The notes under the pieces were generated by a model. The model saw only the letters and a list, made by a program, of their open reading frames with translations. It had not been told where the DNA came from and made no database searches. A stretch of DNA of 64,000 nt from Georgenia faecalis (GTDB lineage Bacteria; Actinomycetota; Actinomycetes; Actinomycetales; Actinomycetaceae), in the NCBI RefSeq assembly GCF_003710105.1, contig NZ_CP033325.1, forward strand, positions 3,286,001-3,350,000. Direction: 5' to 3'. This document shows positions 3,905 to 36,476 of this stretch, piece after piece. Position 1 is the first letter of the stretch, and every line of letters starts with the position of its first letter. The position numbers and the translations under genes were made by a program.

Positions 3905-5434
3905 TCAGCCGTCCGGCACCCGGCGGACCTGGAACACCGTCGAGGTGACCACGGTGCCGGGCGCGCCGGACGCCTCGGCCAGGCGCTCGGACCACACCCG
4001 TACCGAGACGTCGCCGCTCGCCTCGGCGAGGTCCGCCGTCTGCGCGTACGTGGTGACGGCGTGCGCCTCGGAGAACCCGACGTCGGTGCGGTGCGGCCCG
4101 GCGTGCCCGGCCGTGAGGGAGCGCGCCACCGTGGTGCGACGGGGCTCCGCCGGGTTGGGCGTGCCGTCGAGCCCGGGGATGACGTCCTCGAGGTGCTCGA
4201 GGCTGAGGACGTGCGCGCGGGGCGGGGTGGGCATGTGGGCCGCCGGGCTGCCCGCGGTGAGGACGGCCGCGACCGTGTAGCGGGTGGCGAACACCGGGTC
4301 CGCGGCCAGGCGCATCGCCGTCAACCCGCCCTGGCTGTGACCGACGAGCGTCACCTCCTCCCCGGCGGCGATCCCCGCCTGGTCCATGGCCCGCGCCACG
4401 CCCTCCTCGGCGTCGCTGGGCAGGCCGACGAACGCCTCGGCGTTGGTGAGGTTGTCCAGCGGGTTGGACCCGCCGCCGCCCTGGTGCTGCGTGCCGGGGA
4501 CGAGCACCGTCCAGGTCCGGCGCCCGTCGGGGTGCTCGACCCGGCGGACCTCCACCGTGCCCGGTCGCCCGCCCGCCGCGGGCGCGAGGCGGTCCATCGC
4601 CCGGAGCAGGTCCCCGCCGCCGCTCGCCGGGGGGACCTCGCGCGGCGGGAGCACGGGCGTCACCTCCACCGCGTGGTCGCCCCGGGGCCCGCCGACGACG
4701 ACGGCGGGCAGGGCCTGCAGCGCGAGCGCGACGGGGAGGAGGGCGCGCTGCTCCGGGCTGAGGTCGCCCAGCGGGAGGCCGGCGAGCTCCGCCCCGTCCG
4801 GCAGGGCGAACCACGGCAGGTAGTGCTGCAGCTCGGCGGCGGCCTCCCGCACCGTGCGCTGGGTGGCGAGGCCGTGAGGCACGCGCGAGCCCGGCGGGCC
4901 CTCGGGCAGCGGGAGCGCGTCGAGGGCGGCCGCGAGCGCCGACCGTCCCGGCACGAGGCCCAGGGGCAGGTCGCCCAGCATCCGCACGCTCACCAGGGCC
5001 GGGCCGAGGGACCGTGAGAGCACGAGGTGCGGGGTGCGGACCCGGGCGGCGAACGCCGACCACGACGGCGTGGCCGGCGACCCGAACGGGGCGCGAGAGG
5101 CCCCCTCCGCCTCCTCGTAGGCCATCCGCGCCTGCCGCAGGCTCCCCTCCAGCTCGGCGACGACCGGCTCCAGCGAGGAGAAGCTGCCCGGCCCGTCGAC
5201 GGCCGCCTCGACGAGGCCGATCGCCCACTCGGCGCGCTGCGGCACCCATTGGCCGTCCCAGCGCAGGTGACCCCGCGCCCGCAGCAACGACGTCCGGCCG
5301 AGGTCGAGGACCCGGCCCGCCTCGGCGAGGCGTTCCTCCAGGGCGCGCAGCTCGTCGGTGTCCACCTGGGTGCGCCCGAACCCGCCCGTGACGATGACGG
5401 CCGCGGCGGAGGGCTCCGGCCGGTCGCGGCTCAT
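3905..5434 (-). CDS. alpha/beta-fold serine hydrolase with helical N-terminal region
   Basis: Protein of 509 aa. The C-terminal third has an alpha/beta hydrolase core: the nucleophile elbow GHSQGG with Ser367, an acid candidate Asp417 (LEDVIPG) and His458 (SEAHAVTTY), the right order and spacing for a catalytic triad. The N-terminal 150 residues are Ala/Glu/Arg-rich and helical, like the packing domain of WXG100-linked hydrolases. No signal peptide is visible. Its ATG overlaps the stop of the upstream WXG100-like gene (ATGA), so the two are translationally coupled and probably interact. A lipase or esterase role is possible; type VII export is inferred only from the partner. The substrate is unknown. 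Confidence 0.75.
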   Translation of the reverse strand: MSRDRPEPSAAAVIVTGGFGRTQVDTDELRALEERLAEAGRVLDLGRTSLLRARGHLRWDGQWVPQRAEWAIGLVEAAVDGPGSFSSLEPVVAELEGSLRQARMAYEEAEGASRAPFGSPATPSWSAFAARVRTPHLVLSRSLGPALVSVRMLGDLPLGLVPGRSALAAALDALPLPEGPPGSRVPHGLATQRTVREAAAELQHYLPWFALPDGAELAGLPLGDLSPEQRALLPVALALQALPAVVVGGPRGDHAVEVTPVLPPREVPPASGGGDLLRAMDRLAPAAGGRPGTVEVRRVEHPDGRRTWTVLVPGTQHQGGGGSNPLDNLTNAEAFVGLPSDAEEGVARAMDQAGIAAGEEVTLVGHSQGGLTAMRLAADPVFATRYTVAAVLTAGSPAAHMPTPPRAHVLSLEHLEDVIPGLDGTPNPAEPRRTTVARSLTAGHAGPHRTDVGFSEAHAVTTYAQTADLAEASGDVSVRVWSERLAEASGAPGTVVTSTVFQVRRVPDG

Positions 5435-25996: not shown

Positions 25997-28900
25997 TCAG
26001 CGCCCCACGGTGATGATCCCCATGTCGAGGCCGGGGTGGTACCCCGCGTCACCGCTGTAGAGGACGGTGATGACCGTCGTCGAGCGGATCGCCGGGATGG
26101 TGAGCACCGCAGTGCCGTTCTCGTCGAGCGTGACGGGGCCGATGCGACGGAAGTTGGCGTACGCCGTCACCGTTCCCGTCGGGACGGGCGCTCCGTCGCT
26201 CCCGGACACCGTGACCGTGACCTCGGCGTCCGACCCGCGCGGTACCCGCCAGTCGGCGTCCAGGCTGACGTCCGGCCACGCCTTGGCGATGACCAGCCGG
26301 GCCGGGGCGCTCGTCGAGCCGGCGACGTCGGCGCTGCCGGCGTAGACCGCGACGAGGTCGTGCCGCCCCACCGGGAGGTTCTGCGGCAGCGCGATGGTCG
26401 CCGTGCCCACGAGCCCGTCGACGACGAGCGTCCCGGTGGCGACGACCTGCCCGCCGACCCGGATCTCCACGGACCCGCTCGGGGCCGCCGAGGCGCCGGT
26501 GACCACCACGGTGGCGGTGACCGGCTCCCCGAACGCCACCCGGTCGTCGGACAGGGTGAGCGTCGTGGTCGAGGCGGACTGCCCGACCACCACCGTCACC
26601 GGGGCGGAGGTCGAGGGCCCGAACGCGGCCGTGGCGGGGGTGAACCGTGCCGTCAGCGTGTGGCTGCCGGCGCTGAGCGTCGCGGTGATGCTCGCCGTGC
26701 CGCCGGTCACCGGGGCCGAGCCCAGCTCCGTCGCGCCGTCGAAGAACGTCACCGTGCCGGTCGCCTCCGGCGGTGCGACCGTCGCGGTGAGCGTGAGCTC
26801 CTCCCCGGCGGTGCGGTCACCCGAGACCGCGAGGGTCGTCGTGGTCGCGACGACCTGCGGCTCCTCCACGACGACGTCGACGACCTGGGCGCGGGAGCCC
26901 GGGGTGGCGTTGTGCGTGTGCAGGACGAGCAGCGGCGGGGGGTCCTCGCCCAGGTCGGCCGCGCGGTGCACCTCGAGCTCCGTGCCGTCGTCGGCGACGA
27001 AGAGCAGCGAGTTCGGTGCCCCGCCGTCGAACCAGTAGTCCGGCGCGTACGGGTCGGCCGTGAACTCCTCCGTGGTGTCGATGATGTCCGTGCCGCTCGG
27101 GGCGTAGCCCGAGAACGTCCACACCTGGAACGTCGGCACCGTCTCGGGGTCGAAGAGGTCCACGCTGATCGGGGCGACGAGGACGTTGTTGTCGAACACC
27201 GTGGTGTCGACGTTGCCGAACTGGGTGTTGATCGGCAGGACCTCGACGGTCTCCTCGGTGGCGAGGTCGGTCGTCACGGCGACCGTGACGTCGTCGTCGG
27301 CCGAGAGCTTCTGGATCGTCGTCTGCAGGTCGACGTCCCCGTCGCTGTCCACGTCGGTGTCGATGACCGGGATGACGTTCGTGCCCAGGGTGGGCCACTC
27401 CCCCTGCATCGCGATGCCGATGCCGACGACGCCGAGGAGGGGGTCGCTGCCCGCGTCGGCGAGCTGGGGGGCGGTCGACGCGAAGCCGACGTAGCGCACG
27501 TCACCCGCGGCGACCGACGACGGCGACGTGGCGACGTCGGACTCCTCGAGCTGCGGGCTCTCCGCGACGAGTGCCATCGGCGCGGCGAACGAGACCCACC
27601 CGAGGGAGTCGTCGGTGTGCCCGGAGTCGACGCCGCGGCCGGTGAGCACGAGCGGCGCCGTGAGGTCCGCAGGGCCGTCGAACGTCACCGGCTCCTCCGC
27701 CTCGAGGTCGCTCACCAGGCGCGGGGCGGCGTGCACCGGCACGCGGAGCTCGCCCCCCTCGTCCCCCTGCGGCGTGAGGACCAGCCGCCCGGAGAGCGTG
27801 GCGAGGAAGTCCCGGGGCACCCCGACCCCCGAGTTCACGCCCTGCGTCGGGTCCATCTCCCGCACGAGCGTGGCCGGGTCGGCCGTGAGGGTGAGGGTGA
27901 CCGTCTGGGTCCGTCCGGGCTGGACGGTGATGGAGGCCGGCGTCACGGCGATGGTGGCCCCACCGGTCGCCGTGGACCGCGTGAAGGCGGTGTCGAACGA
28001 CGCCGGCGCCGCGGACTTGTTCTCCACGGTGATGGTGCGGCGTTCGACGACGACCTCGTCGGCGACGTTGACGATGCCGAAGGTCGCCGTGACCGACGCC
28101 GGGTTCTCGGTGTCGTAGGCGATGACCTCGGTGCTCACGGCATCGAGGGCGTCGACCCGCCCGGCACCCACGCGCTCGGGGCCGAACGCGGGGCCCTGGG
28201 GGCCCTGGTCCCGGTAGACGTCGTGCGTGGCCGTGTTGATCACGGCCGCCTTGACCTCCTGGGCGTCCCAGGTGGGCCGCACCGCCTGGACGTTCGCGGC
28301 GATGCCGGCGACGTGCGGGGCGGCCATGGACGTGCCCGAGAGGGTGTTGGCCGCGGTGCCCGCGCCGGACGCGGCGGACGAGATGGACGTGCCCGGTGCC
28401 GCGACGTCGGGCTTGACGATGCCGAGCGAGCCGTGGGCGCCGCGCGAGGAGCCGCTGTTGAGCGTGTCCGCGAGGGTGTCGTCCTCGACGAAGGCCGCCC
28501 CGGCGAGCGACGGGCTGAGCCGGACGGTGAGCGTGCCGGCCTGGATCTCCGGCAGGAGCAGGTCGGTGACGTCGTCGGTGAGCTGGGCGCCGGGGACGGC
28601 GGGGTTGCCGGAGATCCCGGCGGAGAAGAACGGGAGCTCGGACCCGATGAGCACGCCGACGGCCCCGGCGGCCTGCGCGTTGTTCCACCGGGCGACGCTG
28701 CCGCACGCGCGGGTGGCGTCGTTGTCGTCCCAGTACAGCCAGACGATGTTGCCGGCGATCTGCTCGGCGTACGGCGCGAGCGACGTGCACCCGCTGACGT
28801 CGGCGCCGAGGTAGACGACCGGGGCGGTGACGTCCGCGTCGCTGGCGTAGGCGACGGTCATCTGGGCGGCGTGCAGGCCCTCGAGTGCGTCGTTGGCGGC

Positions 28901-30160
28901 GTCGACGACCTCGATGGCGTCGTACGTCATGGTGTCGCCCACGGAGTTCGCCACCGCGAGCGCGCTGCCGGCGTTGCCCGGCGAGCCGCCGACGTCGACG
29001 ATGTCGCCGGAGTTGCCGGCCGACATCACCGGGATGGTGCCCAGGCGCGCAAGCTGGTCGATGAAGAGGTTCTCCGGGTCGTCGACGGGGGCCTCGGCGG
29101 CGCCGAGGGAGAGGTTGACGACGTCGAGGCGGTCGTTGAAGTCGAAGTCGTTGTTCGGGTCGGCCGCCCACTCGAGGGCGTTGATGGTGACGTTGGTGCT
29201 GCCGCCGTCGTCGCCGAACACCTTGAGGGCGTAGATGCCGGCCTCCGGGGCCGAGCCCGGGCCGATCTGCCAGTCGCGGATGTCCTCCAGCGCGGCGTAG
29301 TCCCCGCGGAAGGTCTCCCCGTCGGGTGTGACGCCGTAACCCGCGGCGGTGCCGGCGACGTGGGTGCCGTGCCCGCTGCCCCCGCCGGTGTACGGCCCGT
29401 CGATGGGGTTGGGGTCCGGGTGGGGGACGCCCAGCGCCGGGTCGTCGGCGCCGGCGTCGTAGTCGGTGCCGGCGAAGTCGTAGCCGCCGAGGAACTTCTC
29501 GGGGTCGAAGAGCCCCGCGGGGATCGGGCCCGTTCCGTCCTCGCCGTAGGCGGCGGCGTAGGCCTCCTCGGTGCCGGGGCCGCCGAAGTCGGCGTGGGTG
29601 TAGTCGACGCCGGTGTCGATGATGCCCATGCGGATGCCCGCGCCGGTCCCGCCGGCCTGCTCCCAGGCCTCGATGGCGCGGGTGAAGACGTCCGTGCCCT
29701 TGTTGTCCGGGGTCTTGGGGGTGACGAGGTAGACCTGGACGACGTCCTCGGACGCCGCCAGCGCGCGGACCTGCGCGGCCTCGCCGGTGACGATCGTGCC
29801 GGCGAGGAGCTTGGTGGTGACGGAGAGCTGGACCGGCGCGGCTGTGCGGGCCCGTGCGCTCGCCTGCGGCACCACGTCGTCGGCGAGGGCCTCGATGTCC
29901 GCCGCCGCGGCCGTCACGGCGGCATCGCTGCCGCCGGACTCGGCCACGTCGAGCGCGGAGGGCGCGTCCAGCTGGACGAAGGCGGTGACGCGGCCCTGGG
30001 CGTCGCGCAGCGCCGGGACCACCTTGTCGGTGGCGTCGATGCCCGCCTGCGCGGGCAGTCCGGACGGGTCGTCGTCCGGGACGGCGGCTGCGGCCGGCCC
30101 GAGGGCGGCCGCCGCGGCGAGAGTGAGGGTGGTCAGTGCTGCTGTCAACGGTCGGCGCAT
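25997..30160 (-). CDS. giant secreted S8 (subtilisin-like) serine protease with Ig-like repeats
   Basis: Exported protease of 1387 aa. Order: signal peptide (LAAAAALGPAAAA), propeptide-like region to about residue 140, S8 catalytic domain with Asp near 180 (GIIDTGVDYTH), His near 263 (GHGTHVAGT), oxyanion Asn (SAGNSGD) and Ser near 612 (GTSMAAPHVAG). A PA-type insert (about 450-560) lies between the His and Ser blocks. C-terminal to it are a beta-rich region and at least three Ig-like repeats (VTVTFFDGATEL-type, from about residue 1090). No wall anchor is seen, so it is probably released. The start at ATG 30160 leads directly into the signal peptide; its ribosome-binding site is weak. Confidence 0.92.
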   Translation of the reverse strand: MRRPLTAALTTLTLAAAAALGPAAAAVPDDDPSGLPAQAGIDATDKVVPALRDAQGRVTAFVQLDAPSALDVAESGGSDAAVTAAAADIEALADDVVPQASARARTAAPVQLSVTTKLLAGTIVTGEAAQVRALAASEDVVQVYLVTPKTPDNKGTDVFTRAIEAWEQAGGTGAGIRMGIIDTGVDYTHADFGGPGTEEAYAAAYGEDGTGPIPAGLFDPEKFLGGYDFAGTDYDAGADDPALGVPHPDPNPIDGPYTGGGSGHGTHVAGTAAGYGVTPDGETFRGDYAALEDIRDWQIGPGSAPEAGIYALKVFGDDGGSTNVTINALEWAADPNNDFDFNDRLDVVNLSLGAAEAPVDDPENLFIDQLARLGTIPVMSAGNSGDIVDVGGSPGNAGSALAVANSVGDTMTYDAIEVVDAANDALEGLHAAQMTVAYASDADVTAPVVYLGADVSGCTSLAPYAEQIAGNIVWLYWDDNDATRACGSVARWNNAQAAGAVGVLIGSELPFFSAGISGNPAVPGAQLTDDVTDLLLPEIQAGTLTVRLSPSLAGAAFVEDDTLADTLNSGSSRGAHGSLGIVKPDVAAPGTSISSAASGAGTAANTLSGTSMAAPHVAGIAANVQAVRPTWDAQEVKAAVINTATHDVYRDQGPQGPAFGPERVGAGRVDALDAVSTEVIAYDTENPASVTATFGIVNVADEVVVERRTITVENKSAAPASFDTAFTRSTATGGATIAVTPASITVQPGRTQTVTLTLTADPATLVREMDPTQGVNSGVGVPRDFLATLSGRLVLTPQGDEGGELRVPVHAAPRLVSDLEAEEPVTFDGPADLTAPLVLTGRGVDSGHTDDSLGWVSFAAPMALVAESPQLEESDVATSPSSVAAGDVRYVGFASTAPQLADAGSDPLLGVVGIGIAMQGEWPTLGTNVIPVIDTDVDSDGDVDLQTTIQKLSADDDVTVAVTTDLATEETVEVLPINTQFGNVDTTVFDNNVLVAPISVDLFDPETVPTFQVWTFSGYAPSGTDIIDTTEEFTADPYAPDYWFDGGAPNSLLFVADDGTELEVHRAADLGEDPPPLLVLHTHNATPGSRAQVVDVVVEEPQVVATTTTLAVSGDRTAGEELTLTATVAPPEATGTVTFFDGATELGSAPVTGGTASITATLSAGSHTLTARFTPATAAFGPSTSAPVTVVVGQSASTTTLTLSDDRVAFGEPVTATVVVTGASAAPSGSVEIRVGGQVVATGTLVVDGLVGTATIALPQNLPVGRHDLVAVYAGSADVAGSTSAPARLVIAKAWPDVSLDADWRVPRGSDAEVTVTVSGSDGAPVPTGTVTAYANFRRIGPVTLDENGTAVLTIPAIRSTTVITVLYSGDAGYHPGLDMGIITVGR

Positions 30161-30312: not shown

Positions 30313-30446
30313 GTCGAGTTCGCTGCTTCTCGCCGAGTTCGCTGTTTCATGCCGAGTTCGCTGTTTGATGCCGAGTTCGCTAGTCAGAACTATCGAACTC
30401 GGCATGGGTTGGCGAACTCGGCACCGCCGCGGTGCCCGAGTTCGCT
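30313..30446. repeat. 19-bp-period repeat cluster, copy 1
   Basis: The core GCCGAGTTCGCT occurs at 30313, 30332, 30351 and 30370, exactly 19 bp apart (unit GCCGAGTTCGCTGTTTCAT). Two inverted cores (CGAACTCGGC) follow at 30394 and 30413, again 19 bp apart, then one more direct core at 30435. The cluster fills most of the 307-bp gap between the subtilase start and the EamA stop, and the rest of that gap shows no gene. A second copy with the same plan lies at 35704-35837. Direct and inverted units can pair into long hairpins. Confidence 0.9.
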
Positions 30447-30467
30447 ACTTCCTGCCGGGCGAGCGGC

Positions 30468-31340
30468 TCACGGCGGCGCGGCGTCCGCGCCGCGCGGCCC
30501 GGCGGCGCGCACCGCGCCGGCGCTGGCGAGCGCCACGAGGGCGATCGCGGCCAGCTGGACCGGGCCGAGCGCCTGGTCGAGCACGAGGAAGCCCGCGAGC
30601 GCCGCGATGGCGGGCGCCAGGCTCATCATCACGGCGAAGGTCGCCGCCGGCAGCCGCCGCAGAGCGGCCATCTCCAGGCTGTAGGGCAACGCCGAGGACA
30701 GGACGGCGACCGTGGCGCCCGCAGCCAGCGTCCCGGGCGCGAGGAGGGCGCCGCCCGCGTGGGCGAGCCCGAACGGCAGGCTCAGCGCCGCGGCGACGGC
30801 CATGGCTAGCGCCAGCCCGTCGGCGCGGGCGAAGCGACGGCCGACCCGTGAGCTGAGCACGATGTAGGCGGCCCACAGGGCCGCCGCGACGAGCGCGAAG
30901 AGCACCCCGAGCGGGTCGAGGCCCCGGACGTCACCGCCCCCGAGGAGGACGACGCCGGTCAGCGCGAGCCCCGCCCACACGAGGCTCGTCCACCGGCGGG
31001 CGGCGACGACGGACAGGGCCAACGGGCCGAGGAGCTCGAGCGTGACGGCGGCGCCCAGCGGGATGCGGTCGATGGCTGCGTAGAACGCCGTGTTCATCCC
31101 GCCGAGCGCGAGGCCGAAGGCGGCCACGAGCCGCCAGTCGGCGGCGCTCCGCCCGGAGAGCCGGGGGCGGAAGAGGACGAGCAGGATCGCGGCGGACAGG
31201 GCGAGGCGCAGCGTGACGACGCCGAGCGGACCCACGCGCGGGAACAGCAGGGCCGCGACGGCGGCCCCGAACTGGGTGGAGCCGGCGGCCGCGAGGACCA
31301 GGAGCACCGCGCCGGCGCGGCCTGCCGGGAAAGGCTGCAC
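30468..31340 (-). CDS. EamA-family (RhtA-like) metabolite exporter
   Basis: Ten-helix drug/metabolite transporter of 290 aa with two EamA repeats. RhtA-like features are FFPRVGPLGVVTLRL-type sequence in the first repeat and SSALPYSLEMAALRRLP in the second, typical of threonine/homoserine exporters. GTG 31340 is the start because GGAGGAACC directly precedes it and the first helix follows; the longer frame is rejected. Substrate unproven. Confidence 0.85.
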   Translation of the reverse strand: MQPFPAGRAGAVLLVLAAAGSTQFGAAVAALLFPRVGPLGVVTLRLALSAAILLVLFRPRLSGRSAADWRLVAAFGLALGGMNTAFYAAIDRIPLGAAVTLELLGPLALSVVAARRWTSLVWAGLALTGVVLLGGGDVRGLDPLGVLFALVAAALWAAYIVLSSRVGRRFARADGLALAMAVAAALSLPFGLAHAGGALLAPGTLAAGATVAVLSSALPYSLEMAALRRLPAATFAVMMSLAPAIAALAGFLVLDQALGPVQLAAIALVALASAGAVRAAGPRGADAAPP

Positions 31341-31707
31341 GGTTCCTCCGCGGTCGTGACGTCGCCCCACCGTAGCGACCGCTCCCCCGCGGGGGCCGGC
31401 GTGCCCACGCCGCATCCCGACGCCGGGCCGTGCCGGACGCGCTCGCCGCACCCCGGGGCCCGACCGGCAGCCAGCCAGCCAGCCAGCCAGCCATGGAACT
31501 GGATTTCATCGACAAAGGTCGGTCCGGAAGTGTTTGACGCCGATCCTCACCGTTGGGAGAGTGCGAGGCGAGCGGCGACGCCGATGGGGGCAGACGCGTT
31601 CACCTCGGGTTCATCGCGTGGTCGCGCACGCGACCTGCACACGGAACCGCACCGTCACCCGTCCGCCCTAGCGTCGCGGCTACCCGCACCCACGAAGGAG
31701 CTCATCC
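31341..31707 (+). other. gene-free region with a (CAGC)6 tract and the promoter of the wall-anchored hydrolase
   Basis: No convincing coding frame lies in these 367 bp. Positions 31468-31491 hold six perfect CAGC units. A TAGCGT -10-like box is at 31669-31674 and GAAGGAG at 31694-31700, 7 nt before the GTG of the next gene. Base composition is less biased at 31500-31560 than in the flanking genes. Confidence 0.6.
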
Positions 31708-34700
31708 GTGCACAACCCCCGCAGCGCCGCCGGTTGGAACCGGCGGGCGGCGGTCGCCACCGCCGGCGCCGCCCTCCTGCTCGCCCCCATGGCCACCGCC
31801 TCGGCCACGCTGGCCACCCCCGCCGCGAGCACCGTCGTCGCGCCGCACGGGATGGACCTCGTCGCCGACGGCGTCTTCGCCACCGCCGAGACCGACCGCG
31901 TCGCGCCCGGCCTGGACGTCACACGGTTCTCCCGTCAGGAAGAGGCGGGGTGGACGGCGGGCGCCGTCATGGTCGCCGACCTGTCCGTGCCCACGCTGTC
32001 GGTCGACGTCGTCAACTCCGGCGCCGTCACCGAGCCGGCCACCGTCTCCGAGCACCTGGCGAACAACGGGGCGGTCGCTGCGATCAACGGGGACTTCTTC
32101 GACATCAACTACTCCGACGCCGCCAACGGCACCGCCGTCTCGCGCGACGGCGTCCTCAACGGGACGTCGACGCCCAGGGCCGGCCTGACGATCACCGAGG
32201 GGCTCGCCGCGGTCCAGGGCGTCGCCGCCGTCGCGACGGTCACCGTCGACGGCACGGACCACCGCGCCGGGGGCGTCAACACCCCGCACCTGCCCGCCGG
32301 GTCCGTGGGGGTCTACACCCCGGCGTGGGGCGGGCACACCCTCGACCGTCCCGTGGGCGGGCCGGAGTCCGTCTCCCCGAACGTCCGCCGTGCGACGGTG
32401 GTCGACGGCGTCGTCACCGCCATCGGGCTCGGTGGTGGAGCGCCGAGCATCCCGGAGGACGGGTTCGTCCTCCTCGGCCGCGAGGCCGGCGCGGACCTCG
32501 TCGCCTCGCTGAGCCTCGGTGACGAGGTGGGCCTCGACATCACCACCGACGTGGGTGCCGACGTCGCCCTCACCGGTGGCGAGGTGCTCATCGCCGACGG
32601 CGTCGTCGTCGCGGCCGACGCGGCCGTCCACCCCCGCACCGCCGTGGGGGTGAGCGAGGACGGCACCCAGCTGTTCGCCCTGGCCCTCGACGGGCGGGCG
32701 CACTTCGGGCGCGGCATGTCGACCATCGAGCTCGCCGAGCTGCTCGCGGACCTCGGCGCCCACGACGCCGTCAACCTCGACGGCGGAGGCTCGACCACCA
32801 TGGTGGCGCGCCTGGCCGGTGACGCGGAGACGACGGTGCTCAACCGCCCCTCCGACGGGGTCGAGCGCCCGGTGCCCAACTCGCTCGCGTTCTTCTCCAG
32901 CGCCCCCGCGGGCACCGCGACCGACGTCGCCGTCGAGCCCGTGAGCGACCTGGACGGCGCCGACACCGTCCTGCCGGGCCTGCACCGCACCCTGGCGGGC
33001 ACCGGGCTCGACGCGAACCTCGCGCCGGTCGCCGTGGACGGCACCTTCACCGTGGGCTCCGACGCCGTCACCCTCACCACCGACGGCGCCACCGCCGTCG
33101 TGCAGGGCGAGGAGCGCGGCCGGGCCACGCTCACCTACGCGGCCGGCGGCCTCACCGCCGCTACCGGGATCGAGGTCCTCGGCGCGCTCGACCACGTGCG
33201 GGCGGACCGCAACGTCATCGCCCTCGAGGCGACCGACGACGCGGCCACCATCCACCTCACCGGTTACGACGCCGACGGCCACGGATCACCGATCGAGGTC
33301 CAGGACGTCACCGTCACCGCCCCGGAGGGCTTCACCATCACCCCCGACGGCGTCGACGCCTTCACCGTCGAGTCCTCGCTCGAGCAGGGCGGCGGGACCG
33401 CCTCGCTCGTCGTCGGCGACGCGGTCGTCGACCTGGCGCTCACCGTCGGCTTCGAGGAGGTGGAGGTCCTCGACCTCGCCGACGCCGCCGACTGGACCTA
33501 CGACGTCGCGCGCGCCACCGGCGAGACCGCTCCCGCCGAGGGCCCCGAGGCCGGCACGAACGGCCTGCGCCTCACGTACGACTTCACCACCTCCACGAGC
33601 ACCCGCGGCTTCTACGCCATCGCCCCGGAGCCGGTCGTGCTCCCCGGCCAGCCCCGCTCCCTCACCCTGTGGGTCAAGGGCTCGGGCAACGGCGAGTGGC
33701 CCCGGCTGCAGGTGCGCACCGGGGAGGGCGTGGTGACCAACCTCGACGGTGCGCTCGTCGAGTGGGAGGGCTGGCAGCAGGTCTCCTTCCCCGTCCCCGC
33801 CGGCATGGCCTACCCGCTGACGTTCGAGCGGGTCCGCATGATGGAGACCCGCCCCGACGCCCAGTACGCCGGCGACGTCACCGTCGGCCCGCTGTCGGTC
33901 GTCCTCGCCGCGGACGTCGACGCGCCGCAGGTGACGCCGGTGCACGACCCGGTGATCGTCACCGACGGCACCGTCACGGACCGCCCGCTCCAGGTCGCCG
34001 TGATGTCCGACGCCCAGTTCGTCGCGGCCAACCCGACGAGCCCCCTCGTCGAGGCGGCCCGGCGGACGCTGCGGGAGATCGTCGCCGCCGAGCCCGACGT
34101 GCTCGTCATCAACGGCGACCTCGTCGACGAGGCGTCCCCCGCGGACTTCGACCTGGCCCGGACCGTCCTCACCGAGGAGGTGGGCGACGCGGTGCCGTGG
34201 GTCTACGTCCCCGGCAACCACGAGATCATGGGCGGCCCGATCTCCAACTTCATCGAGGAGTTCGGCGCGCCCAGCACCGCCCGCACCCTCGACGGGACGC
34301 GCCTCATCACGCTCAACACCGCCGGGGGCACCTACCTGTCCGGGGGCATCGATCAGCTGCGGATGCTCGAGGAGCAGCTCGCCGACGCGGCCGCGGACCC
34401 CGCCGTCAGCGGTGTCCTCGTCTTCTCCCACCACCCCACCCAGGACCCGCTGCCCAACAAGGCCAGCCAGCTGGGCGACCGCGAGGAGGCGGCGGCGATC
34501 GAGCGCACGCTGGCGGACTTCCGCTCCGGCAGCGGCAAGTCGGCCGCCATGGTCAACGGGCACGTCGGCGTCTTCCACGGACGCAGCAGCGAGGGCGTGA
34601 GCTACCTCGTCAACGGCAACTCCGGCAAGGGTCCCAGCGGCACCCCCGCCACCGGTGGGTTCACCGGGTGGACGATGCTCGGCGTGGACCCGGCCGCGGG

Positions 34701-35565
34701 TGTGGTCGGGGACGTCCCCGCCGTGCCGGACGCACGCCTGGCCTGGATGCGGGCCGAGGTGATGGCCCGCGTCGACGCGCTGCACCTGGCCGGCCCGGAC
34801 ACCCTGGAGGTGGGCGAGAGCGCGACCGCGTTGGCCACCCTCGTCCAGGACGAGGGGCGCGAGGTGCCCGTCGCGTGGCCCGTCTCCGCCCAGTGGGGCG
34901 GCGACGACGTCCGGATCGACGACGGCTCCGTGCCGGCCGGTGACGAGGACGACGCCCTCGAGGAGGCCGGCGGGGTGCTCCGGTACAACCCCCGCACCGG
35001 GGCGCTCACCGCGCTCAGCGGCGGCGTCGCGACGCTCACCGTCACGGTCAACGGCGTGACGGCGGAGCTCGACGTCACGGTCCCCGAGCCGGAGGTGCCG
35101 ACCGAGGACCCCACCGACGTGCCGACGGAGGACCCGACGGATCTCCCGACCGAGGAGCCGACCGATCTCCCGACCGAGGAGCCGACCGATCTCCCGACCG
35201 AGGAGCCGACCGATCTCCCGACCGAGGAGCCGACCGATCTCCCGACCGAGGAGCCGACCGGTGAGCCCACGCCGGACCCCACCGACGGGCCCAGCGACGG
35301 GCCCAGCGACGGGCCCAGCGACGGGGCGCCGGGCGGGGAGCCCACCACGACGCCCACGCGGGCGCCGGGCGAGGGTGGGCCCTCGGCCGGGCGGCCGGGC
35401 GGCGGCGCCGACGGCGGGGCCGATGGCGGATCCGGCTCGGGTGGTGCGCTGCCGAGCACGGGCGCCGACGGGGCCTCCGTGGCCGTCGCCACCGCCCTCG
35501 CCCTCGCGGCGGCCGGCGTCCTCGCCTCCCTCGGGGCGCGACGACGGGCCGCGCGGGCGCACTAG
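31708..35565 (+). CDS. wall-anchored phosphodiester glycosidase / metallophosphoesterase fusion
   Basis: Exported protein of 1285 aa: signal peptide (1-35); NAGPA-type phosphodiester glycosidase domain (about 60-400; AAINGDFFDINY and AVNLDGGGSTTMVARL); beta-rich linkers; a calcineurin-like metallophosphoesterase domain (about 755-1000) with SDAQF, INGDLVDE, PGNHEIMGG, FSHHPTQ and NGHVGVFHG. The first motif is Asp-x-Gln instead of Asp-x-His. Then a Thr/Pro/Glu repeat stalk and a sorting signal LPSTG near 1248 with hydrophobic stretch and Arg tail. Probably a sortase-anchored surface enzyme acting on phosphodiester-linked sugars. GTG start with GAAGGAG upstream. Confidence 0.9.
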   Translation: MHNPRSAAGWNRRAAVATAGAALLLAPMATASATLATPAASTVVAPHGMDLVADGVFATAETDRVAPGLDVTRFSRQEEAGWTAGAVMVADLSVPTLSVDVVNSGAVTEPATVSEHLANNGAVAAINGDFFDINYSDAANGTAVSRDGVLNGTSTPRAGLTITEGLAAVQGVAAVATVTVDGTDHRAGGVNTPHLPAGSVGVYTPAWGGHTLDRPVGGPESVSPNVRRATVVDGVVTAIGLGGGAPSIPEDGFVLLGREAGADLVASLSLGDEVGLDITTDVGADVALTGGEVLIADGVVVAADAAVHPRTAVGVSEDGTQLFALALDGRAHFGRGMSTIELAELLADLGAHDAVNLDGGGSTTMVARLAGDAETTVLNRPSDGVERPVPNSLAFFSSAPAGTATDVAVEPVSDLDGADTVLPGLHRTLAGTGLDANLAPVAVDGTFTVGSDAVTLTTDGATAVVQGEERGRATLTYAAGGLTAATGIEVLGALDHVRADRNVIALEATDDAATIHLTGYDADGHGSPIEVQDVTVTAPEGFTITPDGVDAFTVESSLEQGGGTASLVVGDAVVDLALTVGFEEVEVLDLADAADWTYDVARATGETAPAEGPEAGTNGLRLTYDFTTSTSTRGFYAIAPEPVVLPGQPRSLTLWVKGSGNGEWPRLQVRTGEGVVTNLDGALVEWEGWQQVSFPVPAGMAYPLTFERVRMMETRPDAQYAGDVTVGPLSVVLAADVDAPQVTPVHDPVIVTDGTVTDRPLQVAVMSDAQFVAANPTSPLVEAARRTLREIVAAEPDVLVINGDLVDEASPADFDLARTVLTEEVGDAVPWVYVPGNHEIMGGPISNFIEEFGAPSTARTLDGTRLITLNTAGGTYLSGGIDQLRMLEEQLADAAADPAVSGVLVFSHHPTQDPLPNKASQLGDREEAAAIERTLADFRSGSGKSAAMVNGHVGVFHGRSSEGVSYLVNGNSGKGPSGTPATGGFTGWTMLGVDPAAGVVGDVPAVPDARLAWMRAEVMARVDALHLAGPDTLEVGESATALATLVQDEGREVPVAWPVSAQWGGDDVRIDDGSVPAGDEDDALEEAGGVLRYNPRTGALTALSGGVATLTVTVNGVTAELDVTVPEPEVPTEDPTDVPTEDPTDLPTEEPTDLPTEEPTDLPTEEPTDLPTEEPTDLPTEEPTGEPTPDPTDGPSDGPSDGPSDGAPGGEPTTTPTRAPGEGGPSAGRPGGGADGGADGGSGSGGALPSTGADGASVAVATALALAAAGVLASLGARRRAARAH
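35137..35256 (+). repeat. five tandem 24-bp units coding the stalk of the wall-anchored protein
   Basis: Five near-identical 24-bp units, each encoding TDLPTEEP, run without interruption; only the first differs, by one base. Degenerate copies precede them from 35101. The near identity at DNA level suggests recent expansion and probable length variation between strains. Confidence 0.92.
35284..35319 (+). repeat. three tandem 12-bp units (DGPS repeats)
   Basis: GACGGGCCCAGC is repeated three times without change, encoding Asp-Gly-Pro-Ser, directly after the 24-bp array in the same stalk. Confidence 0.88.
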
Positions 35566-35591
35566 AACCATCTGAATCCCCGGGGGGGACC

Positions 35592-35632
35592 CGAGGGGGT
35601 GCGCGCGACTGGAGGGCGTGCGCACCCCCTCG
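35592..35632 (+). terminator. hairpin terminator of the wall-anchored hydrolase gene
   Basis: CGAGGGGGTGCGC (35592-35604) pairs perfectly with GCGCACCCCCTCG (35620-35632), 27 bp after the stop at 35565. Confidence 0.7.
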
Positions 35633-35703
35633 TGGTGCCGGGGCCGGGGCGCGCGCCCCCTCGTGGTGTCCGCGCCGGTGGGCGACCCTGCTGCCCACTC
35701 CAC

Positions 35704-35837
35704 GCCGAGTTCGCTGTTTCACGCCCAGTTCGCTATTTCACGCCGAGTTCGCTAGTTCCTCCTATCGAACTCGGCACAAACCCTCGAACTCGGCGCACGA
35801 GCGAGCGCCGAGTTCGCTAGTTCGCGCCGAGTTCGCC
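35704..35837. repeat. 19-bp-period repeat cluster, copy 2
   Basis: Direct cores GCCGAGTTCGCT (one with GCCCAG) at 35704, 35723 and 35742, inverted cores CGAACTCGGC at 35766 and 35785, then direct cores at 35807 and 35826. All neighbouring cores within a block are 19 bp apart, as in copy 1, and the order direct-inverted-direct is the same. It lies between two convergent genes (35565 and 35859). Confidence 0.9.
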
Positions 35838-35858: not shown

Positions 35859-36476
35859 CTACGGACGGCGGGCGATCCGCGGCGCGAACCGCCCCACCCG
35901 GTCGGTGTACCGGGCGTACGCCTCCCCGTGCACGCGCCGCAGGTACGGTTCCTCGACCGCCCGGACCTGCACCTCGACGGCGATGGCGAGGCACGCGAGC
36001 GCCGCAGCCGTCACGACGGTGGGCACCAGCAGGACCAGCCCGACCAGCGCCGCGATCATCGCGGTGAAGATCGGGTTGCGGACGACGGCGAACGCGCCCG
36101 TCGTGACGAGGTCCGTGCGCTCGGCCGGGTCCACCCCGATGCGCCACGAGCTGCCCATGCCGGCCTGCGCCGCGAGGACGCCGAGACTACCGAGCGCCAT
36201 GAGCCCGACGCCGGTCCACGGGAGTGCGGCCGGGAGCGCGACGGCCGCCGGGACCGCCTCCACCACGGCCAGGGCCGGGCCCGCCGCCCCGAGCACGAGG
36301 GCGGCGACGAACAGGATGCCGCCCCACCACGGCGCCGATCCCGGCGCGCCGGACAGCCCCCGGTAGCCCGCGGACCCGGTGGCGCGACGGTGCACCCACG
36401 CCCGGACGGCGAACGCGCCGAAGAGGCCGAGCCCGTACAGGACCAGCGCCGCGAGCGCGGCCCGCTCAGTCGTCAT
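35859..36476 (-). CDS. isoprenylcysteine carboxyl methyltransferase-like membrane protein
   Basis: Membrane protein of 205 aa with about five helices, of the ICMT/phospholipid-methyltransferase fold that uses SAM. The conserved C-terminal core is present: GSSWRIGVDPAERTDLVTTG, VRNPIFTAM, and EEPYLRRVHGEAYARYTDRV. Bacterial members rarely have prenylated protein substrates, so the acceptor is unknown. The start overlaps the end of the CDF transporter gene by 11 nt, making it the third gene of a metal-linked operon. Confidence 0.85.
   Translation of the reverse strand: MTTERAALAALVLYGLGLFGAFAVRAWVHRRATGSAGYRGLSGAPGSAPWWGGILFVAALVLGAAGPALAVVEAVPAAVALPAALPWTGVGLMALGSLGVLAAQAGMGSSWRIGVDPAERTDLVTTGAFAVVRNPIFTAMIAALVGLVLLVPTVVTAAALACLAIAVEVQVRAVEEPYLRRVHGEAYARYTDRVGRFAPRIARRP

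Follow-up and report, generated by a model that had tools for sequence, protein, structure and literature searches.

A dispersed 72-bp palindrome family of REP-like layout in Georgenia faecalis and its order, with a candidate nuclease partner distinct from RAYT

Background

REP-like repeats are among the commonest repeats of bacteria and RAYT is the accepted mobiliser of such sequences: REPs are extragenic palindromes accompanied by RAYT (TnpA-REP), whose gene is flanked by its own copies of the repeat (PMC2817692, PMC3733652). GT pairing within REPs has been taken as a sign of function at the RNA level (PMC3733652). Here we analysed two intergenic clusters of a 19-bp-period repeat in a 64,000-nucleotide stretch of the Georgenia faecalis chromosome (NCBI RefSeq assembly GCF_003710105.1, contig NZ_CP033325.1, positions 3,286,001 to 3,350,000 of the forward strand), hereafter the window, in which position 1 is the first letter. 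With a probability of about 0.6, each cluster represents a non-autonomous, REP-like mobile palindrome of 72 bp that has a nuclease other than RAYT as its partner. Support is good for the palindrome family and for its mobility, and the nuclease as partner is a strong lead, short of proof, drawn from gene layout, matching subfamilies and protein fold. No description of the palindrome family was found in the open-licence literature and, as far as that literature goes, the family looks undescribed.

The family works like a REP system without being a member of REP. As with REP, REPIN and BIME sequences, its copies are extragenic palindromes scattered at gene 3' ends and in convergent gaps (here mainly between convergent or unidirectional genes), they form arrays of alternating orientation and they fall into separate subfamilies per genome. 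The layout also recalls REP and RAYT in that a DNA-processing gene is bracketed by its own palindrome subfamily, here at six loci. The enzyme differs, however: the bracketed gene encodes a protein with an AbiEi-like part and a Vsr-like PD-(D/E)XK part, and a search for the RAYT/Y1 (HUH) transposase (PF01797) gave no match in the G. faecalis genome or in 20 other carriers, while control genomes were matched, so this enzyme was rejected as the mover in the 21 carrier genomes. The palindrome itself is longer, with a 72-bp unit and two 19-bp modules per arm compared to 20–40 bp in REP; the GTAG/CGTC foot of REP is not common to the palindromes described here, and G-U pairs are not in excess.

Rickettsia palindromic elements (RPE) are palindromic repeats that lie in frame inside protein-coding genes. 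Two copies of the present family likewise lie in frame within protein-coding genes, but its palindromes are far more often intergenic, occur in Actinobacteria, consist of four modules and have an associated nuclease gene.

A 72-bp unit in the window and in the host genome

We write D for a direct and I for an inverted copy of the 10-mer core GCCGAGTTCG, with the step at a junction in square brackets. The two clusters and the palindromic unit inside each are as follows:

30313..30444, + strand: cluster 1 array, D D D D [24] I I [22] D with 19-bp steps, found by core search; D cores at 30313, 30332, 30351 and 30370, I cores at 30394 and 30413, D core at 30435
30351..30422, + strand: cluster 1 72-bp palindromic unit, D D [24] I I, covariance-model E = 2.1e-19
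35704..35835, + strand: cluster 2 array, D D D [24] I I [22] D D with 19-bp steps, found by core search; D cores at 35704, 35723 and 35742, I cores at 35766 and 35785, D cores at 35807 and 35826
35723..35794, + strand: cluster 2 72-bp palindromic unit, D D [24] I I, covariance-model E = 2.8e-16

Allowing at most one mismatch, GCCGAGTTCGCT matched 13 times in the window compared to 0.75 expected, and 13 of 13 matches fell inside the two clusters. The 4-2-1 and 3-2-2 layouts and the strict 19-bp period claimed in the original prediction were borne out by the GCCGAGTTCG positions; that prediction had not noted that the junctions, too, have constant steps, 24 bp for D-I and 22 bp for I-D, in addition to 19 bp for D-D and I-I in both clusters.

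The host genome (G000), a 3.43-Mb single contig containing the window, holds many more copies. A scan at 19-bp steps, proposed with the original prediction, was run genome-wide and yielded 132 matches to GCCGAGTTCG-N9-GCCGAGTTCG with up to three mismatches, compared to a single match for the reversed control pattern. Loci elsewhere in this genome follow these steps too, apart from rare deviations of one base. Runs of D range from one to seven in length while runs of I are always two, whichever the reading direction, so the smallest common unit is the 72-bp palindrome D D [24] I I. Applied to G000, a covariance model of this unit gave 65 matches over two strands, equivalent to about 32 copies. 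All 27 of the loci examined lie between predicted genes (called with a simple codon model, doubtful cases being checked by Pfam), and each of nine co-directional arrays is closer to the 3' end of the upstream gene. The longest array in the family, D7 II D5 II D4 II D3, covers 490 bp (G000:C1:2059107-2059596, positions 4008-4497 of locus L040), and its nearly uniform spacers suggest recent tandem growth.

Spread of the family across the order

In a sample of the order, the covariance model matched 47 of 396 genomes, representing 24 of 109 genera. Applied to a phylum-wide sample of 396 genomes, it recovered only G000, two further genomes of the order and a borderline one from outside. The 72-bp unit is also present in Actinotalea sp. 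M2MS4P-6 and in G189, and approximate copy numbers were ~40 in G362, ~33 in G032 and ~14 in G546. The core sequence varies between and within genomes (G362 alone holds three core subfamilies, GCCGAGTTCGCACC, GTCGAGATCGAGG and CGAGCTCGTACC), while the 72-bp architecture stays constant. A known RNA family was considered and rejected: an Rfam search returned nothing above the gathering score, just sub-threshold microRNA models that respond to hairpins.

Pairing within the palindrome

Based on an alignment of 53 sequences, 87% of cells are paired, compared to 30–40% when the partner is slid, and 30 of the 34 pairs have changed on both sides. Where the two D modules of one element differ, outside G000 and G189, each inverted module tracks its palindromic partner at 63 positions and the swapped partner at one, which indicates that the whole palindrome is kept in those genomes, beyond the module alone. 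The outer ends of the palindrome read GCCGAG...CTCGGC or CGTTTT...AAAACG. Within all four modules, CGAGNTCG is nearly invariant and held at a fixed phase, although part of this invariance is a search effect because the model was built from such cores.

Read on the strand of the neighbouring genes, the non-Watson-Crick cells comprise 74 G-U and 102 A-C. Since G-U does not exceed A-C on the sense strand, there is no sign of selection at the RNA level, and this reading was set aside as unsupported. Nor is intrinsic termination supported, because no U tract occurs in the 30 bases 3' of the palindrome (T accounts for 2% to 19% at each position) and because in one G546 subfamily the palindrome is preceded by TTTT and followed by AAAA whichever strand is read, an order opposite to that of an intrinsic terminator.

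Evidence for mobility

Six copies in G546 are almost letter-identical over CGTTTT-72 bp-AAAACG and have unrelated flanks. One lies in frame within tilS, between the PP-loop and substrate-binding domains; the corresponding linker is short, unrelated and free of the palindrome in the siblings G385 and G219, and it holds a different palindrome in G1031. In a fused carboxyltransferase gene, a copy in the inter-domain linker is common to several species and shows compensatory changes. Three ideas had been put forward in the original prediction, namely mobile or structural elements, protein-binding arrays and complex terminators. The mobile-element idea is now the best supported, owing to the dispersed family, the near-identical copies in unrelated flanks and the species-specific in-frame insertion. 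Protein binding is plausible as a mechanism, given that the four cores keep CGAGNTCG at a fixed phase and that the associated protein has an AbiEi-like part, while intrinsic termination is not supported, for want of a U tract.

Like miniature inverted-repeat transposable elements, the palindromes are short, non-coding, multi-copy inverted repeats with insertions within genes. They differ in that no target-site duplication and no parent insertion sequence were found, and in that the inner modules are as conserved as the ends.

A predicted nuclease gene bracketed by palindromes

Pairs of palindromes about 1.1 kb apart bracket one gene in G546 and G385. When a profile of this nuclease gene was run against 1.38 Mb of examined DNA, each match adjoined a palindrome. 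Palindromes stand on both sides of the gene at six loci in five genomes (G385, two loci in G546, G523, Actinotalea sp. M2MS4P-6 and G349) and on one side in G395 and in the host genome, where the gene is located as follows:

G000:C1:390782-391789, − strand: nuclease gene of the host genome, with two arrays on the gene's 3' side

Both-sided flanking was found for 6 of 8 members of the nuclease family compared to 4 of 577 other genes (p = 1e-10), and for 4 of 6 (p = 2e-7) when the two loci chosen for being paired were left out. Each of the two nuclease genes of G546 is bracketed by its own, different palindrome subfamily, and distances between proteins were correlated with distances between palindromes (Mantel r = 0.68, p = 0.0016, all permutations). 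As a separate observation, other single genes, encoding a methyltransferase, a GNAT acetyltransferase and others, sit between two palindromes (≤300 bp) at loci L165, L187, L042 and L026, possibly as cargo or by chance.

The flanked protein has about 315 residues and was modelled with a mean pLDDT of 86.7. In this model, residues 1–185 match the fold of the AbiEi antitoxin 6y8q (Z 12.3 over 166 residues) and also that of Rv2827c, in line with a match to the PADLOC AbiEi profiles (E = 3.6e-16). Residues 190–302 match the catalytic domain of I-Bth0305I (3r3p, Z 10.2) and Vsr (1cw0, Z 9.5), and more weakly TnsA (Z 6.1). By sequence, the nuclease profile had no match in the PDB, the kinship being seen by fold comparison, and DUF559 and MTES_1575 gave weak matches in 2 of 7 flanked proteins. 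The residues E193, D224, E235, D237 and K241 are kept in 8 of 8. On the strength of the structure model, the protein is predicted to join a DNA-binding domain of AbiEi type to an endonuclease domain that resembles those of Vsr and I-Bth0305I and whose catalytic residues are intact.

The protein shares with Vsr-like (EDxHD) homing endonucleases such as I-Bth0305I the fold of the catalytic domain, and with it a possible cut-and-copy mode of spread. In contrast to I-Bth0305I, its gene is outside an intron and flanked by palindromes, an AbiEi-like part is joined to the nuclease and many target-like copies are dispersed. The AbiEi fold of the N-terminal 185 residues and the PADLOC match likewise connect it to the AbiE type IV toxin-antitoxin system, but the protein has a C-terminal nuclease domain that sets it apart from an AbiEi antitoxin, and there is no toxin gene between the palindromes and the nuclease gene at the both-sided loci. 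Among plasmids there was one weak match to the flanked protein. A phage origin was rejected, as the exact double core occurred in none of the viral contigs searched and the nuclease profile found no relative there.

Proposed mechanism and points against it

The protein of the flanked gene may spread the palindromes. The unit consists of four phased 19-bp modules that share the core CGAGNTCG and are arranged as D D [24] I I; in G000, the outer D modules have additionally multiplied by 19-bp steps, giving the direct-inverted-direct arrays. The AbiEi-like winged-helix part of the nuclease would bind the 19-bp modules, the Vsr-like PD-(D/E)XK part might cut or nick the palindrome, either as duplex or as hairpin, and repair or replication could then copy the palindrome to new sites, resembling RAYT and REP in layout with unrelated chemistry. 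A preference for gene ends would mostly reflect the survival of harmless insertions, gene ends being where least damage is done, and the palindromes may additionally act at the 3' ends of mRNAs.

Several observations weigh against this explanation. No target-site duplication was detected, flank matches of 2–12 bases lying within about 2 sd of shuffled flanks. No exact empty site was found in the tilS or carboxyltransferase linkers because these are too diverged; in genus g70, neighbouring genes are mostly non-adjacent in relatives, adjacent pairs are without such a palindrome and, again, no exact empty site was found. The full palindrome is not conserved everywhere, as the outer modules and spacers of G000 and G189 pair poorly and it is the modules that are retained. 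At many carrier loci and in many carrier genomes no nuclease gene lies nearby, and none was seen near the elements inspected in G189, G362, G032, G237, G424, G297, G467, G268 and G346. Finally, the nuclease gene of G000 has elements on one side only, and the Mantel signal is carried largely by three related proteins.

Alternative explanations

Another, unseen enzyme, for example an insertion-sequence transposase, might move the palindromes, with the nuclease gene as cargo or by-stander. The carrier loci and genomes without a nearby nuclease gene fit this idea, as do the four other genes in the examined loci that also sit between two elements. However, members of one gene family are found between palindromes in five genomes, each time with its own subfamily, the usual target-site duplication of DDE-type enzymes is missing and no Y1 transposase occurs in the 21 carriers. 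We consider this explanation unlikely, though the most probable of the alternatives.

The position of the copies relative to genes bears on a second alternative, in which the palindromes serve regulation at gene ends, as bidirectional terminators, I-shaped hairpins or stabilisers of mRNA 3' ends, under selection in transcripts, and the adjacent nuclease is incidental. When copies were mapped against gene ends, as suggested with the original prediction, they proved intergenic and mostly located directly after stop codons. For 160 copies from many genomes, we counted 59 in convergent, 69 in co-directional and 21 in divergent gaps, as well as 6 that overlap a gene call. Of the copies, 40% fall in convergent gaps, which make up 16% of intergenic bases (p = 4e-12), and 14% in divergent gaps, which make up 28%; 56 of the 69 co-directional copies are closer to the 3' end of the upstream gene. 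This strong convergent and 3' preference, the closeness to stop codons and the long hairpins with compensatory changes all favour gene-end regulation, and transcript ends at U-less hairpins have been reported in Streptomyces (PMC8269248). Against it stand the missing U tract, the TTTT and AAAA arrangement of the G546 subfamily, the two copies inside genes and the lack of preference for G-U over A-C, unlike in REPs (PMC3733652). Termination would also leave both the identity of the dispersed cores and the flanked nuclease unexplained, and we regard this role as improbable.

AbiEi proteins bind repeats in their own operator, and the cores might likewise be operators that form a binding array along the whole chromosome for an AbiEi-like regulator; the flanked gene would then regulate itself, and the other sites would be bound for chromosome organisation or regulation. 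The fixed phase of CGAGNTCG in all four modules, the AbiEi-like domain of the flanked protein and the fact that G000 keeps the modules and less so the full palindrome are consistent with this. Against it, the sites lie at 3' ends and avoid divergent promoter regions, they are patchy between species with a species-specific copy inside tilS, and the protein retains a full nuclease site; we judge the explanation to be distinctly improbable. Lastly, two local duplications and nothing wider, which might draw on the way 19-bp D modules have multiplied in tandem inside individual arrays and would have sufficed had there been just two copies and no periodicity in relatives, are refuted by about 32 copies in G000 and 47 carrier genomes in the order, the strict 19-bp step being family-wide across genera.

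Should the partnership between palindrome and nuclease hold, this would represent a second, independent route to REP-like spread, by a domesticated AbiEi-Vsr fusion with its own palindromes of four phased modules and with cognate pairs coexisting in one genome; we advance this tentatively, at slightly under even odds. A RAYT-less family that brackets an unrelated nuclease gene permits a direct test of whether palindrome spread was invented repeatedly. If the nuclease is a dedicated partner, it would also be a sequence-specific enzyme whose long target is built of modules and varies in nature, and enzyme-target pairs could be read from genomes.

Neighbouring genes and other observations

The genes next to the clusters lie outside the element:

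25997..30160, − strand: S8 peptidase gene (subtilase with Ig-like repeats, Pfam PF00082), 5' end adjoining cluster 1
30468..31307, − strand: EamA-like transporter gene (Pfam PF00892), 3' end adjoining cluster 1
31708..35565, + strand: NAGPA (phosphodiester glycosidase) and calcineurin-like phosphoesterase gene, between the clusters
35859..36476, − strand: PEMT/ICMT-like methyltransferase gene (Pfam), convergent on cluster 2

Cluster 1 is 24 bp from the 3' end of the EamA gene and 153 bp from the 5' end of the S8 peptidase gene, and cluster 2 lies in a convergent gap, 139 bp from the end of the NAGPA/phosphoesterase gene and 24 bp from that of the PEMT/ICMT gene. The segment between the clusters had been described as EamA plus wall hydrolase; the EamA assignment holds, and the supposed wall hydrolase is the NAGPA/calcineurin-like phosphoesterase gene. 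The C-terminal part of the latter's product contains Asp/Leu-Pro-Thr-Glu-Glu-Pro-Thr repeats (window 35110-35290; Pfam PT repeat), and a short run of the tetranucleotide GCCA lies upstream of the gene (window 31471-31492). Elsewhere in G000, a terminase small subunit-like gene, perhaps a prophage remnant, adjoins an array of the family (L046 3395-3826).

The host genome carries a second dispersed intergenic repeat, GTGATCNTGCAGAAACGCTG, with about 100 copies that often form close inverted pairs or short tandem runs (for example C1 85485-85522, 3029969-3030011 and 644026-644100, at loci L297, L315 and L308). This repeat (GATCNTGCAGAAACGCTG), checked as a possible sibling system and as a control, had no AbiEi-Vsr gene near 20 sampled loci. 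Three arrays of the palindrome family (L036, L037 and L038) adjoin this second repeat, and a 54-bp unit containing it is present in three nearly exact tandem copies at G000:C1:402981-403106 (L301).

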